In this document: piece by piece, positions 17,858-28,495 of the stretch
Layout: every line of letters begins with the position of its first letter
Numbering within the stretch: position 1 is the first letter of the stretch
Source: an uncultured Oscillospiraceae bacterium
GTDB taxonomy: Bacteria; Bacillota; Clostridia; Oscillospirales; Oscillospiraceae
Direction: 5' to 3'
DNA length: 60,989 nt
Assembly: GCA_947628805.1 (NCBI GenBank)
Contig: CANRBG010000007.1
Span: 1 to 60,989 of the forward strand
The notes under the pieces: model-generated
What the model saw: the letters and a program-made list of their open reading frames with translations, nothing else
What the model was told of the DNA's origin: nothing
The model's database searches: none
Position numbers and translations under genes: made by a program

Positions 17858-18987
17858 GAGCGGGCCTCCTTGTAGAAGGCGATGACCGCGTTGGCGGCTG
17901 TCTCCACCTCCGCGTCCGTCAGGCCGTAATACATGGGCAGCCGCAGCAGCCGCTCGCTCTCCCGGGTGGTGTACCGGTCCTCCCCGTGGAACCGGCCAAA
18001 GCGCAGCCCCGCCACGGCGGAGTGCAAGGGCACATAGTGGAACACGCTGCCCACCCCGTGGGCTTTCAGCCAGGCGATCAGGTCCGTGCGCTCGGCCAGG
18101 TCTTTCGCCTTGATGTAGAACATATGGGCGTTATGCACGCACCCCTCCGGGATATGGGGCAGCTCGATCTGTCCCGCCTCCGCCAGGGGCGTGAGCATCT
18201 GCCGGTAGAGCTCCCAGCAATGGAGCCGGGCGGCGTTGATGTCCTCCGCCATCTCCAGCTGGCCGTAGAGATACGCGGCGTTCAGCTCGCTGGGCAGATA
18301 GCTGGAGCCCAGATCCTCCCAGGTGTACTTGTCCACCTGGCCCCGAAGGAACCTGGCCCGGTTGGTGCCCTTTTCCCGGATGATCTCGGCCCGGGGATCG
18401 TCCTCCCGCAGCAGAAGAGCGCCGCCCTCGCCCATGGAGTAGTTTTTCGACTCATGGAAGCTGTAGCAGCCGTAGTCGCCGATGGCGCCCAGGGCCTTGC
18501 CCTTATAGGTAGCCATGACGCCCTGGGCGGCATCCTCCACCACTTTCAGGCCGTGGCGGCGGGCGATGTCCAAAATGGCGTCCATCTCACAGGCCACGCC
18601 GGCGTAGTGCATGGCGCAGATCACCCGGGTCCTGGGGGTGATGGCGTCCTCGATAAGAGTCTCATCGATGTTCATGGTGTCCGGCCGGATATCCACGAAC
18701 ACCGGCACGGCCCCGGCCAGCACGAAAGCGTTGGCTGTGGAGGAGAAAGTATACGAGGGCAGGATGACCTCGTCCCCCGGCTCCAGCCGGCACAGCAGCG
18801 CGGACATATCCAGCGCGTGGGTGCAGCTGGTAGTCAGCAGGGCCCGGGCTGCGCCGGTGCGCTCCGTGAGCCACGCGTGGCATTTCTTCGTGAAAGCCCC
18901 GTCGCCGCTTATCTTGTGGGAATGGATGGCTTCCAGGACGTATTCGTCCTCTTTGCCGCAGTAGGGGGGCACGTTGAAAGGGATCAT
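17854..18987 (-). CDS. wecE: dTDP-4-amino-4,6-dideoxygalactose transaminase-like
   Basis: 377 residues, the usual WecE/RffA length (about 376). It is a DegT/DnrJ/EryC1 PLP enzyme: the N-terminus IPFNVPPYCGKEDEYVLEAI, the substrate loop SGDGAFTKKCHAWL and the PLP-lysine block SFHESKNYSMGEGGA near residue 180 all fit. It would convert dTDP-4-keto-6-deoxy-glucose to the 4-amino sugar using glutamate. The start at 18987 is favoured over 19002 because GGAGGAGCTTTCT precedes it. No rmlAB genes lie here, so the dTDP-keto sugar must come from elsewhere. The product is a likely substrate for WbqC and the ATP-grasp enzymes (inference). Confidence 0.9.
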   Translation of the reverse strand: MIPFNVPPYCGKEDEYVLEAIHSHKISGDGAFTKKCHAWLTERTGAARALLTTSCTHALDMSALLCRLEPGDEVILPSYTFSSTANAFVLAGAVPVFVDIRPDTMNIDETLIEDAITPRTRVICAMHYAGVACEMDAILDIARRHGLKVVEDAAQGVMATYKGKALGAIGDYGCYSFHESKNYSMGEGGALLLREDDPRAEIIREKGTNRARFLRGQVDKYTWEDLGSSYLPSELNAAYLYGQLEMAEDINAARLHCWELYRQMLTPLAEAGQIELPHIPEGCVHNAHMFYIKAKDLAERTDLIAWLKAHGVGSVFHYVPLHSAVAGLRFGRFHGEDRYTTRESERLLRLPMYYGLTDAEVETAANAVIAFYKEARS

Positions 18988-21955: not shown

Positions 21956-22522
21956 GGCGAACCGGAACACCGCCCCGGCCACGGCCCCGATGAGGATGAG
22001 AAACGCCGGGTGGAGCTTTTTGAACTTCACGCTGACCAGATACACCGCCGCCGCCAGAAGCGCCGCTTTCCAGTCCAGCACGGTCCAGAACCGGTCCCAG
22101 CCCTCCCAGGCGTCCAGATGCAGCAGCACGCCCACGGCCACCCCCAGGCCCGCCGCGGCGATGAGCCCCGTGGAGGCGGGCCGGATGCCGTAAAAGGCCC
22201 CGTTCACATAGCGGTTGTCCCGAAAGGCCCGCAAAAACGCCGCGATGATCACGATGACGATGATGCTGGGGGTCACGATCCCCACGATGGCGCACAGACT
22301 GCCCCAGATCCCCGCGGTGGTATAGCCGGTGTATACCGCCATGTTGATGCCGATGGGGCCGGGGGTGGACTCGCTGACCGCCAGCATATCCGCCACCTGG
22401 TGGGCGGTGAACCAGCCGGTGCGCTCGCCCATGTCGTACAGAAACGGCAGCGTGGCCAGACCCCCGCCCACGGCGAACAGGCCCGTTTGGAAAAACTCCC
22501 AGAAAAGCTGTAAATAGATCAT
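21947..22522 (-). CDS. Chromate transporter, half-size subunit
   Basis: 191 residues with one CHR domain: LFWEFFQTGLFAVGGGLATL near the start and SESTPGPIGINMAVYTGY near residue 60 are family signatures. About six helices. Half-size ChrA proteins work as pairs of opposite topology; the partner is the adjacent upstream gene, overlapping by 4 bases (ATGA). The family exports chromate in exchange or with protons, but in gut Firmicutes the physiological anion is often unknown. Confidence 0.92.
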   Translation of the reverse strand: MIYLQLFWEFFQTGLFAVGGGLATLPFLYDMGERTGWFTAHQVADMLAVSESTPGPIGINMAVYTGYTTAGIWGSLCAIVGIVTPSIIVIVIIAAFLRAFRDNRYVNGAFYGIRPASTGLIAAAGLGVAVGVLLHLDAWEGWDRFWTVLDWKAALLAAAVYLVSVKFKKLHPAFLILIGAVAGAVFRFAGA

Positions 22523-23061
22523 TTCCGGGCCTCCTTTCCCACTCGTACCGCTATGCCCGCGGCGGCCGCCGCCACTACGAACAGCACCGGCGACACGTCC
22601 AGAAAATAGGCCAGCAGGCCCACCGCGATGAACACCGCCAACGTCAGCTTGTCGATCACCGAGGTCTTATAGAGCTTGCACACCGCGTTGAAGATCAGCA
22701 CCGCCACCGCCACCCGGATGCCGGCGAAGGCGTTTTGCACCACCGCGTACTCCGCGAAATTCTGCAACAGCGCGGCGATGATGACGATGATGACGAAGCT
22801 GGGCGCCACCACCCCGTAGGTGGCCAGCAGCGCCCCGGCCACGCCCTTGAGCTTGAAGCCGATGAAGGTGGCCGTGTTCACGGCAATGATGCCGGGGGTG
22901 CACTGGCCGATGGCGTAATAGTCCGTCAGCTCCTCGTTGGTGCACCAGCCCCGGGCGTCCACCACCTCCCGCTGCAAAATGGGCAGCATGGCGTAGCCGC
23001 CCCCGAAGGTGATGGCCCCCATGCGGAAAAACACAGAAAAAAGCTCCCAATATATCTTCAT
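22519..23061 (-). CDS. Chromate transporter, half-size subunit
   Basis: 180 residues from 23061, with IYWELFSVFFRMGAITFGGG at the N-terminus and GQCTPGIIAVNTATFIGF near residue 60. It pairs with the downstream half-transporter. The longer open frame to 23346 reads back over the divergent kinase gene and is not credible. GGGAGGCCCGGTC precedes this ATG, and the start overlaps the stop of a 22-codon leader ORF (TCATGA), so translation is probably coupled to that ORF. Confidence 0.9.
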   Translation of the reverse strand: MKIYWELFSVFFRMGAITFGGGYAMLPILQREVVDARGWCTNEELTDYYAIGQCTPGIIAVNTATFIGFKLKGVAGALLATYGVVAPSFVIIVIIAALLQNFAEYAVVQNAFAGIRVAVAVLIFNAVCKLYKTSVIDKLTLAVFIAVGLLAYFLDVSPVLFVVAAAAAGIAVRVGKEARK

Positions 23062-23126
23062 GACCGGGCCTCCCGCTGTCCCGCCCCGGTCTCCGGAGCG
23101 GAAAAACCATCTTTTTCCAAATTCAT
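23058..23126 (-). CDS. 22-codon leader ORF coupled to chrA
   Basis: A short frame encoding MNLEKDGFSAPETGAGQREA plus two more residues. AAGGGGGATACGGCA is an excellent ribosome binding site for its ATG. Its stop overlaps the chromate transporter start by TCATGA. The peptide has no recognisable function; the arrangement resembles a leader or coupling cistron. It could also be chance, since only 22 codons are involved. Confidence 0.5.
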   Translation of the reverse strand: MNLEKDGFSAPETGAGQREARS

Positions 23127-23139
23127 TGCCGTATCCCCC

Positions 23140-23167
23140 TTGCAAATAGAAAGAATTCTGGTAGAAT
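23140..23167 (+). promoter_or_regulatory. Promoter of pfkB-family kinase gene
   Basis: TTGCAA (23140-23145), a 16-base spacer, TAGAAT (23162-23167). The predicted transcription start falls on or next to the ATG at 23174, implying a leaderless or nearly leaderless message. It overlaps the regulatory region of the divergent chromate transporter genes. Confidence 0.6.
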
Positions 23168-23173
23168 AATACC

Positions 23174-24061
23174 ATGGATATGGAAAAAAAGAAAGTCGCC
23201 GTGATCGGCGCGCTGAATGTGGATATCGGAGGCCGGTCCTCCGGCCCCCTGGCCCCCGGGGACTCCATCCCCGGCAAGGTAGGCGTGACCCTGGGCGGGG
23301 TGGGATGGAACATCGCCCGCAACTGCGCCCTGCTGGGGGCGGACACGTCGTTTTACTCCCTCTTGGGCCGGGACGAGCACGAGAGCACCATCCGGGCCGA
23401 GAGCGAGCGGTACTGTGTCAATATCGACGGCTGCCGCTGGGAGGACGAGCCCAATAACCGGTATCTGTATATCTGCGATGAAAACGGCGACGTGGCCGCC
23501 GCCGTGAACGACATGGCCCTGTGCGGCCGGATGGACGCGGCCTTTGCCGGCCGGTGCGTGAGCGGGCTGGAAAGCGCCGGCGCGGTGGTGGTGGACGCGA
23601 ATCTGCCCCCGGCGACTCTGACCTGGCTGGGGGAGAACCTGACCGTGCCCCTGGTGGCGGACGGGGTCTCCGTTGGCAAGATCGTGCGCCTGCGGCCCAT
23701 CCTGGGCCGGCTGCACACCCTGAAAGCCAACCTGCAGGAGGCCGAGGCCATCACAGGCCGCACCGGAGCGGAGGGCTGCATCCGGGCCCTGCTGGACGCG
23801 GGAGTGAAGCGAGTTGTGCTGTCCATGGGCCCTGGCGGCGTGGTCTGCGGCGATGAGGCCGGCACGTTCCCCGTCCCCTCCGTCCACACGGACGTGGTGG
23901 ATGCCACCGGCGCGGGGGACAGCATGACCGCCGCGCTCACCATGGGACTCGTTCGCGGGATGGATTTTTCCGACTGCGCGGCCCTGGGCGTCACCGCCGC
24001 GGGCATCACCGTGGCCAATCCCGGCGCGGTGACCGCCGCCCTGGCGGTGCTGAGGCCATAA
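23174..24061 (+). CDS. PfkB-family carbohydrate kinase, PsuK-like
   Basis: 295 residues, ribokinase/PfkB fold. VAVIGALNVDIGG opens the N-terminal strand, GGVGWNIARNCALLGAD is the first PfkB signature (near residue 40) and VDATGAGDSMTAAL (near 245) carries the anion hole and catalytic aspartate. The opening and lid resemble pseudouridine kinase, but no psuG neighbour is present, so substrate (pseudouridine, ribose, fructose-type sugar) is undecided. No ribosome binding site precedes the ATG. The gene ends at the hairpin at 24087-24116. Confidence 0.85.
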   Translation: MDMEKKKVAVIGALNVDIGGRSSGPLAPGDSIPGKVGVTLGGVGWNIARNCALLGADTSFYSLLGRDEHESTIRAESERYCVNIDGCRWEDEPNNRYLYICDENGDVAAAVNDMALCGRMDAAFAGRCVSGLESAGAVVVDANLPPATLTWLGENLTVPLVADGVSVGKIVRLRPILGRLHTLKANLQEAEAITGRTGAEGCIRALLDAGVKRVVLSMGPGGVVCGDEAGTFPVPSVHTDVVDATGAGDSMTAALTMGLVRGMDFSDCAALGVTAAGITVANPGAVTAALAVLRP

Positions 24062-24086
24062 AAGCCTCGCGGGGATCAAGGTAACG

Positions 24087-24116
24087 AAAAACGGACTGCC
24101 GAAGCAGTCCGTTTTT
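24087..24116. terminator. Bidirectional intrinsic terminator
   Basis: A 13-bp stem, AAAAACGGACTGC pairing with GCAGTCCGTTTTT around a CGAA/TTCG tetraloop. The A and T runs give a U-tract in both directions. It closes the PfkB kinase gene on the plus strand and the putative small RNA on the minus strand. Confidence 0.92.
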
Positions 24117-24279
24117 CATTTTATAAAAGCCACACCCCTGTGCGCTTTGAGGTCGGAAAGGAGTTTCCTGTATGAGAAAGCATCAAGAGGAGAAAGGGGA
24201 GTTACATAAAGGGCCCATGTTACAGGGGCGTGGCCGGCGGCTGTTTCATGGGCGGAAAGGAAGGTGCTTCCGCTCCTGT
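24087..24279 (-). ncRNA. Putative structured small RNA, about 193 nt
   Basis: No protein gene lies here, yet a strong minus-strand promoter (24285-24313) and an intrinsic terminator (24087-24116) frame a transcript of about 193 nt. Predicted helices in the transcript: GCGGAA/UUCCGC (24252-24257 with 24268-24273); GCCCAUG/CAUGGGC (24247-24253 with 24213-24219) extended by ACAG/CUGU; and a 13-bp long-range helix between 24222-24234 and 24129-24141 with one G-U pair. The last two overlap, so they are alternatives or form a pseudoknot. Length suits 6S-type RNA, but I cannot place it in a family. A 65-codon frame from a TTG at 24313 overlaps it but starts inside the -35 box and is rejected. Confidence 0.6.
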
Positions 24280-24284
24280 ACTTA

Positions 24285-24313
24285 ATATAACCATATTTTT
24301 TCCAGCTCGTCAA
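24285..24313 (-). promoter_or_regulatory. Orphan sigma-A promoter driving the small RNA
   Basis: On the minus strand, TTGACG (24308-24313), a 17-base spacer, TTATAT (24285-24290). It points away from the DHH gene toward the terminator at 24087, with no protein gene between. Confidence 0.75.
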
Positions 24314-24533
24314 GTGCTTTTTGCAAAAAAATGGAAATTATCCTGCAATTGGCCCCGCTGGAAGGAATATTCTCCCTTTACAAACACGCACACCGCCATT
24401 TTTTACCGGCCATCCCCCGCTCCGTTCGAGCTGTCACATGGCGAAGGGCTTTTCGCCGGGATTCTGCGGGTCGAAAGGTGGAACGGGCGCTTGAACAGGT
24501 GGTTCAGGGCCAGCGGCAGCCCCTCCGCCGGTC
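24314..24533. other. Intergenic stretch without recognised feature
   Basis: 220 bases between the orphan promoter and the stop of the DHH phosphoesterase gene. I see no convincing ORF, tRNA or strong terminator here. The part near 24320-24400 is AT-richer than the surroundings, which fits upstream promoter DNA. Confidence 0.5.
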
Positions 24534-25481
24534 TTACAGCGTATCTTCAAGGGCTCTCAGCACGGCGGCCTCGATCCGCTCCGGCGGCCCGTCCGTCACG
24601 GCTCCCGCCGCGTCCGCGTGGCCGCCACCTCCGATGACGCGCAGCGCCTGCCCCGCGTGGACGCGCCCGTCGGTGCGCAGGGAGACCTTCCAGGTCCCGT
24701 CGGGGAGCTGGCGCAGCAGCAGCCCCGCCCAGGTGCCCGCCGGAACGGTGGTCAAAAGGGACAGCTTGTCCATATCGTCCTCCGCCGCCCCGCAGGCGGC
24801 CACGGTCCCCCCGTCCAGGACCATGACGCATACCCCAGGCCGGGGAAAGCGCATGGTCTGGTAGAGAGCCGCCTCCAGTCGGAGCCGGGCGGGAGTCTTT
24901 GTCTCAAACAGCCGCTTCGTCAGTCCCGCTCCGTCAAAGCCGGTGTCCCGCAGGGCCCCGGCGATGGTCAGGGTCCGGCCGGTGGTCCCGGGGGTGCGGA
25001 AGCAGTTGGTGTCCGTGGCCAGGGCCGCGTACAACGCCTCGCCCATCTTTGCGGTGAGCGTCACGCCGAGCTTTTTCAGAAGCAGATAGACAAGCTCCCC
25101 CGTGGCCGCGCTGTCCGCCTCCAGATAGGTAGCCCGGGCATAGCCGCTGTTGGTGCCGTGGTGGTCCACGGCCAGGTCTGTGCGCTCCGCCAGGTGTTCC
25201 CAGCCTGTGGGGAACTGGCCTGGTCCCGGGGTGTCCACCGCCGCCACGAAGCGGGGCGCAAAATCCGCCGGGGCGAAGTAAGGCGTCATATAGGGCTCGT
25301 ACCGGGCCATGGAGGGCGGGTTCGCCGCCAGATACGCCCGCTTGCCCAGGGCCCGCAGACCCAGGCACAGGCCGCAGCCGCTGCCCGCCGCGTCTCCGTC
25401 GGGCCGGATGTGGGTGATGATGAGCACGTCCTCCGCCGCCGCCAGCAGCCCGGCGGCGCCGGCCAGATCCACTGTGTACAT
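24534..25481 (-). CDS. DHH-family phosphoesterase (NrnA-like)
   Basis: 315 residues. DHH/DHHA1 architecture: the metal ligands H24, D28 and D30 lie in IITHIRPDGDAAGS, the DHH motif in LAVDHHGTN near residue 105, and the DHHA1 substrate loop RVIGGGGHADAAGA near 280. NrnA-type enzymes degrade short oligoribonucleotides and dephosphorylate pAp; others act on cyclic dinucleotides, so the exact substrate is open. GAAAGGAGCGGCCT precedes the ATG. It is divergent from csoR. Confidence 0.88.
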   Translation of the reverse strand: MYTVDLAGAAGLLAAAEDVLIITHIRPDGDAAGSGCGLCLGLRALGKRAYLAANPPSMARYEPYMTPYFAPADFAPRFVAAVDTPGPGQFPTGWEHLAERTDLAVDHHGTNSGYARATYLEADSAATGELVYLLLKKLGVTLTAKMGEALYAALATDTNCFRTPGTTGRTLTIAGALRDTGFDGAGLTKRLFETKTPARLRLEAALYQTMRFPRPGVCVMVLDGGTVAACGAAEDDMDKLSLLTTVPAGTWAGLLLRQLPDGTWKVSLRTDGRVHAGQALRVIGGGGHADAAGAVTDGPPERIEAAVLRALEDTL

Positions 25482-25565
25482 AGGCCGCTCCTTTCGTGGG
25501 ATGCTATCAGATGATCATTATCATAGCACACCGGCCCGGGCCCGCGCAAGAAAAGGAAAAAAGGA

Positions 25566-25615
25566 TTGACATATACCCCCACAGGGTATATGATATGGAT
25601 ACCCCACAGGGGTAT
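25566..25615 (+). promoter_or_regulatory. csoR-copA promoter with two CsoR-type operators
   Basis: TTGACA (25566-25571), a 17-base spacer, TATGAT (25589-25594). Palindrome 1, ATATACCC-CCACA-GGGTATAT (25571-25591), lies in the spacer. Palindrome 2, ATACCCC-ACA-GGGGTAT (25599-25615), covers the transcription start. Both match the G/C-tract TAxCCCC-GGGGxTA pattern bound by CsoR. Copper-free CsoR would block RNA polymerase at both positions. Confidence 0.88.
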
Positions 25616-25635
25616 ATTGCAAAGGAGGCGTTTTT

Positions 25636-25941
25636 GTGGACGAGGAAAAATGCTGCTGCGGCGAGCGGATGACGGAGCGGTCGGCGGCGGAGCGGAAGAA
25701 GCTGATCCACCGGCTCAACCGGATCGAGGGACAGATCCGGGGCATCCGGGGCATGATAGAAAAGGACGCCTACTGCACGGACATACTGGTCCAGTCCGCG
25801 GCGGTGAACGCGGCGGTGAACGCCTTCAACCGGGACCTGATCGCCAGCCACATGCGGGGCTGCGTGGTCCGGGATCTGCGGGACGGGGACGAGAGCGTGA
25901 TCGACGAGCTGGTGGTCACGCTGCAAAAGCTGATGAAATGA
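25636..25941 (+). CDS. csoR: Copper-sensing repressor CsoR
   Basis: 101 residues, all-helical DUF156 fold, starting at a GTG preceded by AAAGGAGGCG. The Cu(I) ligand triad is complete: C47 (DAYCTD), H72 and C76 (SHMRGC). The DNA-contact region KKLIHRLNRIEGQIRGIRGM is intact. The N-terminus also carries a CCC cluster (residues 6-8), unusual but found in some Clostridia. It controls its own operon through the two palindromes upstream and is followed after 16 bases by the copper ATPase. Confidence 0.95.
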   Translation: MDEEKCCCGERMTERSAAERKKLIHRLNRIEGQIRGIRGMIEKDAYCTDILVQSAAVNAAVNAFNRDLIASHMRGCVVRDLRDGDESVIDELVVTLQKLMK

Positions 25942-25957
25942 CGAGGTGAGCGGATAG

Positions 25958-28495
25958 ATGGAACAGTACGCTGTCACGGGCATGAGCTGCGCCGCCTGCA
26001 GCGCCCGGGTGGAAAAGGCGGTCCGGGCGGTGCCCGGGGTGAAGGAGTGCGCGGTGAGCCTGCTGACCAACTCCATGGGCGTGGAGGGCACCGCGTCGCC
26101 GGCGGACATCGTGGCGGCTGTGGAAAAGGCCGGCTATGGCGCGGCCTTGAAGGGCCAGCCCGCTGCCGGGGAGAGCGCCGCTCCCGCAGCCGGGGAGGAC
26201 GCCCTGGCGGATAAGGAGACCCCCAAGCTAATCCGCCGGCTCATCGCCAGCGCGGCTATATTGCTGCCGCTGATGTACGTGTCCATGGGCCACATGATGT
26301 GGGGCTGGCCGGTACCGAAGTTTCTGGCCGGCAACATCGTCTCCGTGGGCATCTACGAGCTGGTGCTGACGGCGGCGGTGATGGTGATCAACAACCGGTT
26401 TTTCGTCTCCGGCTTCAAGGCCCTGGTCCGGCGGGCCCCCAACATGGACTCGCTGGTGGCCCTGGGGGCCGCGGCGGCCTTTGGTTACAGCCTGTGGGCC
26501 CTGTTCGCGGCCAGCGCCGCCATGATGGAGGGCGGGCACATGGCCGCCATGGCCTATATGGACGAATACTACTTCGAGAGCGCGGCCATGATCCTGACCC
26601 TGATCACCGTGGGCAAGACCCTGGAGGCCCGCAGCAAGGGCCGGACCACCGACGCCCTGAAAAGTCTCATGCGCCTGGCGCCCAAGACCGCCTCGGTGCT
26701 CCGGGACGGGACGGAGGTCCAGGTGCCCGTGGAGCAGGTCCGGCTGGGGGATGAATTTGTGGTCCGGCCGGGGGAGAACATCCCGGTGGACGGCGTGGTG
26801 ATCGCCGGGGGCGGGGCGGTGGATGAATCCACCCTGACCGGGGAGAGCATCCCGGTGGACAAGGCGGAGGGCGATCCGGTCTCGGCGGGCACCGCCAACC
26901 GGTCCGGCTTCCTCCACTGCCGGGCCACCCGGGTGGGACAGGACACCACCCTGGCCCAGATCATCCGCATGGTCAGCGACGCGGCGGCCACCAAGGCCCC
27001 CATCGCCAAGCTGGCCGACAAGGTCTCCGGCATATTCGTGCCCACGGTGATCTCCATCGCCCTGGTGACGGCGGCCGGGTGGCTGCTGGCCGGGCAGACG
27101 CCTGGGTTCGCCCTGGCCCGGGGCATCTCCGTGCTGGTGATCAGCTGTCCCTGCGCGCTGGGCCTTGCCACGCCGGTGGCGGTGATGGTGGGCAGCGGCG
27201 TGGGGGCCCGAAACGGCGTGCTCTTCAAGACCGCCGCCTCCCTGGAGGAGACCGGCAAGGCCCGGATCGTGGCCCTGGACAAGACCGGCACCATCACCCA
27301 GGGGGCGCCCCAGGCCACGGACATCCTGCCGGCGGAGGGGATCACGGAAGAAGAGCTCATGCAGGCCGCCTGCTCCCTGGAGCAGGGCAGCGAGCATCCT
27401 CTGGCCCGGGCCGTGCTGGACCGGGCGGCGGCGGAGGGCGTGACGCCGGAGCCGGTGACGGATTTCAAGGCCCTGCCCGGCAACGGCCTCACCGCCAAAC
27501 TGGCGGGCCGGACCCTGGTGGGGGGCAGCCAGAGCTTTATCGGCGGCCAGATCCAGGTGCCCGCCCCGGTCCGGGACAGCGCGGAAAAGCTGGCGGAGGC
27601 CGGCAAGACGCCCCTGTTCTTCGCCCGGGACGGGAAACTTCTGGGCGTGATCGCCGTGGCGGACGTGATCCGTCCGGACAGCCCCGCCGCCGTGGCGGCC
27701 TTGCAAAATATGGGCCTGCACGTGGTGATGATCACCGGCGACAACCAGCGCACCGCCCGGGCCATCGGGGCCCAGGCCGGGGTGGACGAGGTGATCGCCG
27801 GGGTGCTGCCGGAGGGCAAGGAGAGCGTGATCCGCCGGCTTAAGGAAAAGGGCAAGGTGATCATGGTGGGCGACGGGGTCAACGACGCCCCGGCCCTCAC
27901 CGCCGCGGACATCGGCATGGCGGTAGGCGCGGGCACGGACGTGGCTATCGACGCGGCGGACGTGGTGCTGATGAAAAGCGCCCTGGCGGACGTACCGGCG
28001 GCCATCCGGCTCAGCCGGGCCACCCTGCGCAACATCCGGGAGAACCTATTCTGGGCCTTTATCTATAACTCCCTGGGCATCCCCCTGGCGGCGGGGCTGT
28101 TCATCGGGCTGCTGGGCTGGCAGATGAACCCCATGTTCGGGGCGGCGGCCATGAGCCTGTCCAGCTTCTGTGTGGTGACCAACGCTCTGCGGTTGAACTT
28201 TTTCAAACTTTACGACGATAAGCGTGACCGCAGGGCCAGGCATAAAAACGAAATGACAATAACGATGGAAAAGGAGAACGAGACAATGGAAAAGACCATG
28301 AAGATCGAGGGCATGATGTGCGGCCACTGCGAGGCCCGGGTGAAGAAGGCCCTGGAGGCCGTGCCCGGCGTGACCGGCGCGGAGGTGAGCCACGAAAAGG
28401 GCACCGCCGTGGTGACCGTCGCCACCAATGTGGGTGACGAGGCCCTGAAAAAGGCCGTGGAGGACCAGGACTACAAGGTCCTGTCCATCGCCTGA
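25958..28495 (+). CDS. copA: Copper-exporting P1B-type ATPase with C-terminal HMA domain
   Basis: 845 residues. An N-terminal HMA domain has GMSCAAC (residues 8-14). Membrane helices follow; TGES lies in the actuator domain, SCPCALGLATPVAV is the CPC metal-binding helix, DKTGTITQG the phosphorylation site, SEHPLA the HP motif and GDGVNDAPAL the hinge. After the last helices a linker rich in basic and acidic residues leads to a second HMA domain (MMCGHC, residues about 777-845). Most CopA proteins lack a C-terminal HMA; here it looks like a fused CopZ chaperone. It exports Cu(I) and is co-transcribed with csoR. Confidence 0.95.
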   Translation: MEQYAVTGMSCAACSARVEKAVRAVPGVKECAVSLLTNSMGVEGTASPADIVAAVEKAGYGAALKGQPAAGESAAPAAGEDALADKETPKLIRRLIASAAILLPLMYVSMGHMMWGWPVPKFLAGNIVSVGIYELVLTAAVMVINNRFFVSGFKALVRRAPNMDSLVALGAAAAFGYSLWALFAASAAMMEGGHMAAMAYMDEYYFESAAMILTLITVGKTLEARSKGRTTDALKSLMRLAPKTASVLRDGTEVQVPVEQVRLGDEFVVRPGENIPVDGVVIAGGGAVDESTLTGESIPVDKAEGDPVSAGTANRSGFLHCRATRVGQDTTLAQIIRMVSDAAATKAPIAKLADKVSGIFVPTVISIALVTAAGWLLAGQTPGFALARGISVLVISCPCALGLATPVAVMVGSGVGARNGVLFKTAASLEETGKARIVALDKTGTITQGAPQATDILPAEGITEEELMQAACSLEQGSEHPLARAVLDRAAAEGVTPEPVTDFKALPGNGLTAKLAGRTLVGGSQSFIGGQIQVPAPVRDSAEKLAEAGKTPLFFARDGKLLGVIAVADVIRPDSPAAVAALQNMGLHVVMITGDNQRTARAIGAQAGVDEVIAGVLPEGKESVIRRLKEKGKVIMVGDGVNDAPALTAADIGMAVGAGTDVAIDAADVVLMKSALADVPAAIRLSRATLRNIRENLFWAFIYNSLGIPLAAGLFIGLLGWQMNPMFGAAAMSLSSFCVVTNALRLNFFKLYDDKRDRRARHKNEMTITMEKENETMEKTMKIEGMMCGHCEARVKKALEAVPGVTGAEVSHEKGTAVVTVATNVGDEALKKAVEDQDYKVLSIA
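28286..28495 (+). CDS. Possible internal start giving free CopZ-like chaperone
   Basis: The ATG at 28286 is in frame with copA and is preceded by GGAAAAGGAGAACGAGACA, a plausible ribosome binding site. Initiation here would give a 69-residue protein that is a complete HMA domain with MMCGHC, the size of a stand-alone CopZ. Whether it is used is not known; the frame is fully continuous with copA. Confidence 0.35.
   Translation: MEKTMKIEGMMCGHCEARVKKALEAVPGVTGAEVSHEKGTAVVTVATNVGDEALKKAVEDQDYKVLSIA

Follow-up and report, generated by a model that had tools for sequence, protein, structure and literature searches.

What is encoded by a promoter and a terminator that enclose about 190 nt without a credible reading frame and stand apart from any gene that they could serve? 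An earlier note described this arrangement on the minus strand of a contig from an uncultured Oscillospiraceae bacterium (CANRBG010000007.1; the whole stretch of 60,989 nucleotides is referred to as the window) and took it for a candidate small RNA, possibly trans-acting, protein-binding or 6S-like. The parts of the locus and its neighbors are listed in Table 1.

Table 1. Positions of the small RNA gene, its predicted elements and the adjacent genes in the window.
Feature	Position	Strand	Details and basis
Promoter	24284..24313	minus	-35 TTGACG 24308-24313; -10 TTATAT 24285-24290 or TATATT 24284-24289
Small RNA gene	24087..24279	minus	about 190 nt; inferred transcription start
5' hairpin of this genome	24250..24276	minus	folding; sequence variable among relatives
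Long-range helix, 5' arm, GGCCACGCCCCUGU	24222..24235	minus	folding, alignment
CU-rich block, main predicted mRNA-pairing region	24172..24203	minus	alignment, accessibility, target matches
Second predicted pairing region, GGAAA-CUCC-UUUCC hairpin	24155..24168	minus	
Long-range helix, 3' arm, ACAGGGGUGUGGCU	24128..24141	minus	folding, alignment
Intrinsic terminator	24086..24117	minus	scan, alignment, folding
Upstream neighbor, DHH/DHHA1 phosphoesterase	24534..25481	minus (same strand as RNA)	syntenic in relatives
PfkB-family kinase neighbor	23174..24061	plus, convergent	

The reported promoter, TTGACG-17-TTATAT at 24313-24285, is present and conserved in relatives. A promoter scan of the minus strand prefers TATATT with an 18-nt spacer, TTATAT with its 17-nt spacer lying one base away, and the relatives in a 30-locus alignment exhibit TTGACG...TATATA/TAGATA. 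The terminator, which had been called strong, indeed has the longest stem among the seven terminator-like sites in 22000-26500 and, since this stem reads both ways, the convergent pfkB gene may use it as well. The latter is the next gene and, being convergent, leaves the RNA with no downstream gene, as had been stated. A chromate-transporter frame with a GTG at 23346 on the minus strand overlaps the pfkB start on the other strand (window 23174-23346); the Pfam match covers this frame from residue 100 onward, and the true start is therefore probably located further in. Among the short loci 25 of 30, and among the longer ones 28 of 31, have the DHH gene upstream in the same orientation. Its upstream distance from the RNA is about 2.7-3.3 kb in L043, L046, L060, L066, L070, and L054 and about 1.1-2 kb elsewhere, and the larger distance indicates an insertion between the two. 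Judged from these elements, the RNA appears to have a gene to itself, with its own signals for transcription start and termination and apart from its predicted target genes.

A DNA search of 99 relatives identified the RNA in the genus of the window, whereas other genera gave nothing beyond short, weak matches (E 0.003-0.01). Within the genus, it is single-copy in 32 of 35 genomes, among them all 13 that are at least 90% complete (core pattern), and the three genomes without a match are 64-82% complete. The loci mostly show conserved synteny. Covariance model R1 matched six of 300 genomes of the family, all of them in the genus, and one of 394 genomes of the order, which was the own genome; the strict filters used in both searches lose weak matches. 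An exact degenerate core pattern retrieved 31 stretches from a species-wide collection, all titled Oscillospiraceae, for which genus placement left out L046, L056, and L066; the isolate names mark many of them as rabbit or red-deer MAGs. The same pattern gave no match against viral contigs. The RNA has thus so far been found in one group of uncultured gut bacteria only, and in none of the other genera searched. Conservation in relatives, on which the earlier proposal had been made to depend, was seen for promoter, helices, and terminator in the genomes examined: across the 30 aligned loci the promoter, both arms of the long-range helix, and the core are retained, with sequence changes in the terminator stem and in the 5' hairpin.

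The predicted minimum free energy (MFE) of the RNA is -68.4 kcal/mol, compared with -48.7 kcal/mol (sd 4.3) in 200 shuffles (z -4.55). The proposed 13-bp helix between 24129-24141 and 24222-24234 was recovered with most pairs invariant: the helix 24128-24141/24222-24235 is part of the MFE structure of 32 of 33 related loci, the exception (L030) being truncated where its contig ends, and in 25 aligned sequences 99.4% of the helix cells are paired. Since its pairs are mostly invariant, the covariation looked for among relatives supports the helix weakly. In alignment A1 (29 of the 30 loci, without the truncated L030), three pairs over all helices changed on both sides, a count reached by 46 of 500 shuffles, and seven cells showed such changes, a count reached by none. 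Alignment A2 (25 of 30 loci, without L010 and L027-L030) contained one pair changed on both sides, with a score reached by 116 of 500 shuffles. One of these pairs may reflect an alignment shift in L025/L026. The hairpin at 24213-24253, which was thought to compete with the helix, can form in the own genome. Its conservation was not found, as 73.3% of its cells pair, 435 of 500 shuffles score as high, and no double change was seen; the idea of conflicting structures is therefore unsupported. The sequence GCCGCCGG directly before the helix and AUGGGCC directly after its 5' arm are almost invariant (24210-24240, minus strand), and GGCCA and UGGGCC could pair as a local alternative hairpin.

Between the helix arms, the 28-nt core of the CU-rich block is predicted to be exposed, with a mean unpaired probability of 0.69 vs. 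0.40 for the rest of the RNA (33 loci). In 29 sequences, 26 of its 28 positions are invariant, in contrast to the drifting sequences of 5' hairpin and terminator stem. Complements of the sRNA core were sought at the 798 called starts of the own genome (about 1.55 Mb). The longest contiguous ones comprise 19 bases at an OppA-type gene (G000:C2) and 16 bases at an FGGY kinase gene (G000:C6), followed by 12 bases each at a TrpX-like gene (G000:C14) and a dihydroxy-acid dehydratase-like gene (G000:C49). Four of the 798 starts thus show at least 12 contiguous complementary bases, compared with one (of 12) for the reversed core and a mean of 0.4 for shuffled cores, none of which exceeded 13. In the OppA-type leader, the 19 contiguous predicted base pairs extend from -8 to +11. 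The sugar-kinase start is complementary to the GGAAA-CUCC-UUUCC hairpin plus its flank (TCGGAAAGGAGTTTCC, 16 nt). Outside of the sRNA gene, GAGAAAGCAT occurs twice in 1.55 Mb, both times at called starts. An RNAduplex energy screen of the 798 starts did not discriminate, with 290 starts at or below -25 kcal/mol vs. 169-316 in 13 controls.

Weak secondary matches from the DNA search of the 99 relatives fell on the CU-rich block, and the nine of them in the genus, read in context, are all antisense to translation starts. A search of the genus genomes with a 76-nt core returned the RNA itself 32 times and, at E<=0.3, 28 secondary matches. Of the latter, 27 are antisense over a start region, and the remaining one is inside a frame (G003:C68). 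By gene, the 28 matches comprise, besides this exception, eight SBP_bac_5 peptide-type binding proteins, eight TrpX-like binding proteins (PF04392), three FeoA proteins (a fourth FeoA site came from a pattern search), two FGGY kinases, and one each of an ammonium transporter, a sulfate binding protein, a (d)CMP kinase, a phosphoglycerate mutase, a PcsB-type protein, and an unassigned protein. The reversed core produced seven matches with a best E of 0.0055, which 13 of the 28 real matches surpass. Of the seven, one falls outside any frame, two are located within frames, and four are close to internal ATG/GTG codons of longer frames, and none was therefore counted as a convincing start; starts were assigned by ORF, Shine-Dalgarno sequence, and eye, and real and control sites alike were judged partly by eye. 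As the sites occupy differing positions and frames in unrelated genes, shared protein sequence does not explain them. A mismatch-tolerant pattern found five sites outside of the sRNA in a first search, all at starts, and 15 in a second, of which eight are OppA-type, four are not at convincing starts, and three were left unread. When sites found by pattern only were examined in context, four of five were not at starts. The antisense matches of the core at translation starts favor the trans-acting role among those originally considered.

Conservation of the sites was followed in orthologous leaders. An OppA-type site is present in eight of the 15 orthologue leaders read, with up to 19-21 contiguous paired bases, and absent from seven (G018, G004, G031, G005, G028, G015, G027); this count leaves out the distant G017 match. 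In TrpX-like leaders, a ATGAGAAA-type block was found in 20 of 28 genomes, 16 of which show at least 10 contiguous complementary bases. The divergent genomes G004, G015, G027, G028, and G031 retain the RNA in a changed form (UUAAUGCUUUCUUAUC), and the block is absent from their OppA-type (5/5) and TrpX-type leaders (4/4; no match for G027). A compensatory change matching the divergent RNA was sought in the OppA- and TrpX-type leaders of these genomes and not found. Their own core gave five secondary matches: one (G004) at the start of a probable exported protein, another at the TrpX-like site of G026, and three not at starts. With the exception of OppA- and TrpX-type leaders in these divergent genomes, the comparison points to a conserved seed, predicted to be accessible, that is complementary to conserved start sites.

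The complementary block of TrpX-like leaders corresponds to ATGAGAAAGC (L203, G000:C14 about 17900-17931; L189-L217). In G000, G002, G008, and G021, it opens a frame of about 10 codons whose TGA overlaps the ATG of the binding-protein gene, and in many other leaders it is in frame with the gene. The block may accordingly represent a short upstream reading frame.

Some of the complementarity amounts to plain anti-Shine-Dalgarno pairing. It could be argued that the RNA is a protein-binding or housekeeping RNA whose core is held by contact with a protein or the ribosome, and that the matches at starts are a by-product of its anti-Shine-Dalgarno likeness. The retention of the core where OppA- and TrpX-type leaders lack a site and the outcome of the energy screen would agree with this explanation. 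We nevertheless consider it unlikely, as the matches reach beyond the Shine-Dalgarno sequence (GAGAAAGCATC, TTTCCTGTATGAG) and 27 of 28 are located at starts vs. none of seven for the compositionally identical reversed core.

The locus is best described as, probably, the gene of a trans-acting antisense sRNA that represses nutrient import and acts like LhrC and GcvB. In this model, the transcript would pair across the Shine-Dalgarno region and the start codon of a target mRNA, ribosomes would be excluded, and the resulting block of initiation would lower the amount of target protein. The importers affected would include peptide-type, TrpX-like, and sulfate binding proteins, FeoA, and the ammonium transporter, in addition to some metabolic enzymes, and the GGAAA-CUCC-UUUCC hairpin would serve as a second pairing site for the FGGY sugar kinase. 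Hfq, whose gene is encoded in the genome, may assist pairing. The same pairing might instead activate its targets, or the target mRNAs might act as sponges for the RNA, given that the sites, and with them the sign of regulation, are read from sequence. This is rather improbable, because the sites cover the Shine-Dalgarno sequence or the start codon, where pairing normally blocks initiation.

Other identities fare less well. Covariance models of Rfam were run on the window and no family reached its gathering threshold, in keeping with the description as a separate, unassigned small RNA gene that has its own signals and is conserved in relatives. At a relaxed threshold, eight matches were obtained, all below the gathering scores and mostly on the terminator palindrome, and these were taken as chance. 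The length of the RNA and its long-range helix would suit a 6S-like RNA that binds RNA polymerase. However, 6S RNA (RF00013) is found at G000:C14:13164-13359 in the own genome (E 2.6e-13), and at the RNA locus this family gave no match at gathering in the window and none at E<=5 in 24050-24540. As RF00013, which was matched in 51 of 60 genomes searched, lies elsewhere and the RNA has a large exposed CU-rich block, the suggestion of a 6S-like RNA is unsupported and very improbable. The 6S RNA and the TrpX-like binding-protein gene (17931) are situated within about 5 kb of each other, and the contigs of several relatives carry both. That the locus is a small-peptide gene, or that promoter and terminator are a dead pair brought together by chance, can hardly be credited either: the 65-aa frame that overlaps the region, its sole minus-strand ORF of at least 40 aa, begins with a TTG inside the promoter, is disfavored by 1-nt indels among relatives and by a stop in the conserved block on either reading, and belongs to a locus whose RNA features are conserved across the genus.

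This RNA was not encountered in literature searches on sRNAs of Oscillospiraceae and related terms (subscription journals and preprints were outside their coverage), and a full-text search found no paper joining Oscillospiraceae, sRNA, and Hfq. Post-transcriptional control in uncultured Oscillospiraceae of the herbivore gut is nearly a blank. If correct, the model would supply a predicted sRNA regulon whose targets can be aligned across some 30 species, and the combination of a plastic target set with an almost fixed seed opens sRNA-target coevolution to testing. More tentatively, the RNA could be a hitherto undescribed, genus-wide master regulator of nutrient import with an origin independent of GcvB and LhrC, whose near-frozen seed meets near-perfect sites gained and lost per species (peptides, aromatic-type amino acids, sulfate, ammonium, ferrous iron, and a sugar kinase), some of them doubling as short upstream reading frames.

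Several known sRNAs act in a comparable manner. RsaE/RoxS of staphylococci and bacilli direct C-rich motifs against the Shine-Dalgarno sequences of metabolic messages; the RNA described here can be likened to them in outline only, with no Rfam match at threshold. GcvB and LhrC each have an Rfam family, and neither covariance model matched at threshold here. Since no Rfam family reached threshold, the likeness to both is one of action and kinship is not claimed. According to passages in PMC5880928, the CU-rich loops and single-stranded regions of LhrC1-5 in Listeria monocytogenes pair with AG-rich Shine-Dalgarno regions, oppA being among the targets, and thereby block initiation. The RNA shares with LhrC the CU-rich single-stranded regions complementary to Shine-Dalgarno regions and an OppA-type target, both predicted here. 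It differs in being present in one copy instead of five, in its long-range helix, in matching no Rfam family at threshold, in the length of pairing in OppA-type leaders noted above, and in its targets, those of LhrC including tcsA, lapB, and haem genes. In enteric bacteria, GcvB is one sRNA that acts on numerous transcripts for the uptake of amino acids and peptides by pairing at or close to their Shine-Dalgarno region (parts of PMC3879156 and PMC11878033); its yifK site lies just 5' of the Shine-Dalgarno motif and is accompanied by an ACA enhancer (part of PMC3879156). For the RNA described here, peptide-type and TrpX-like binding-protein messages are candidate targets predicted by complementarity; its CU-rich block covers the Shine-Dalgarno sequence itself, and it has no Rfam match at threshold. 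If the proposed function is true, this would suggest that the GcvB-like solution, in which one sRNA restrains many importers, arose again in another phylum.
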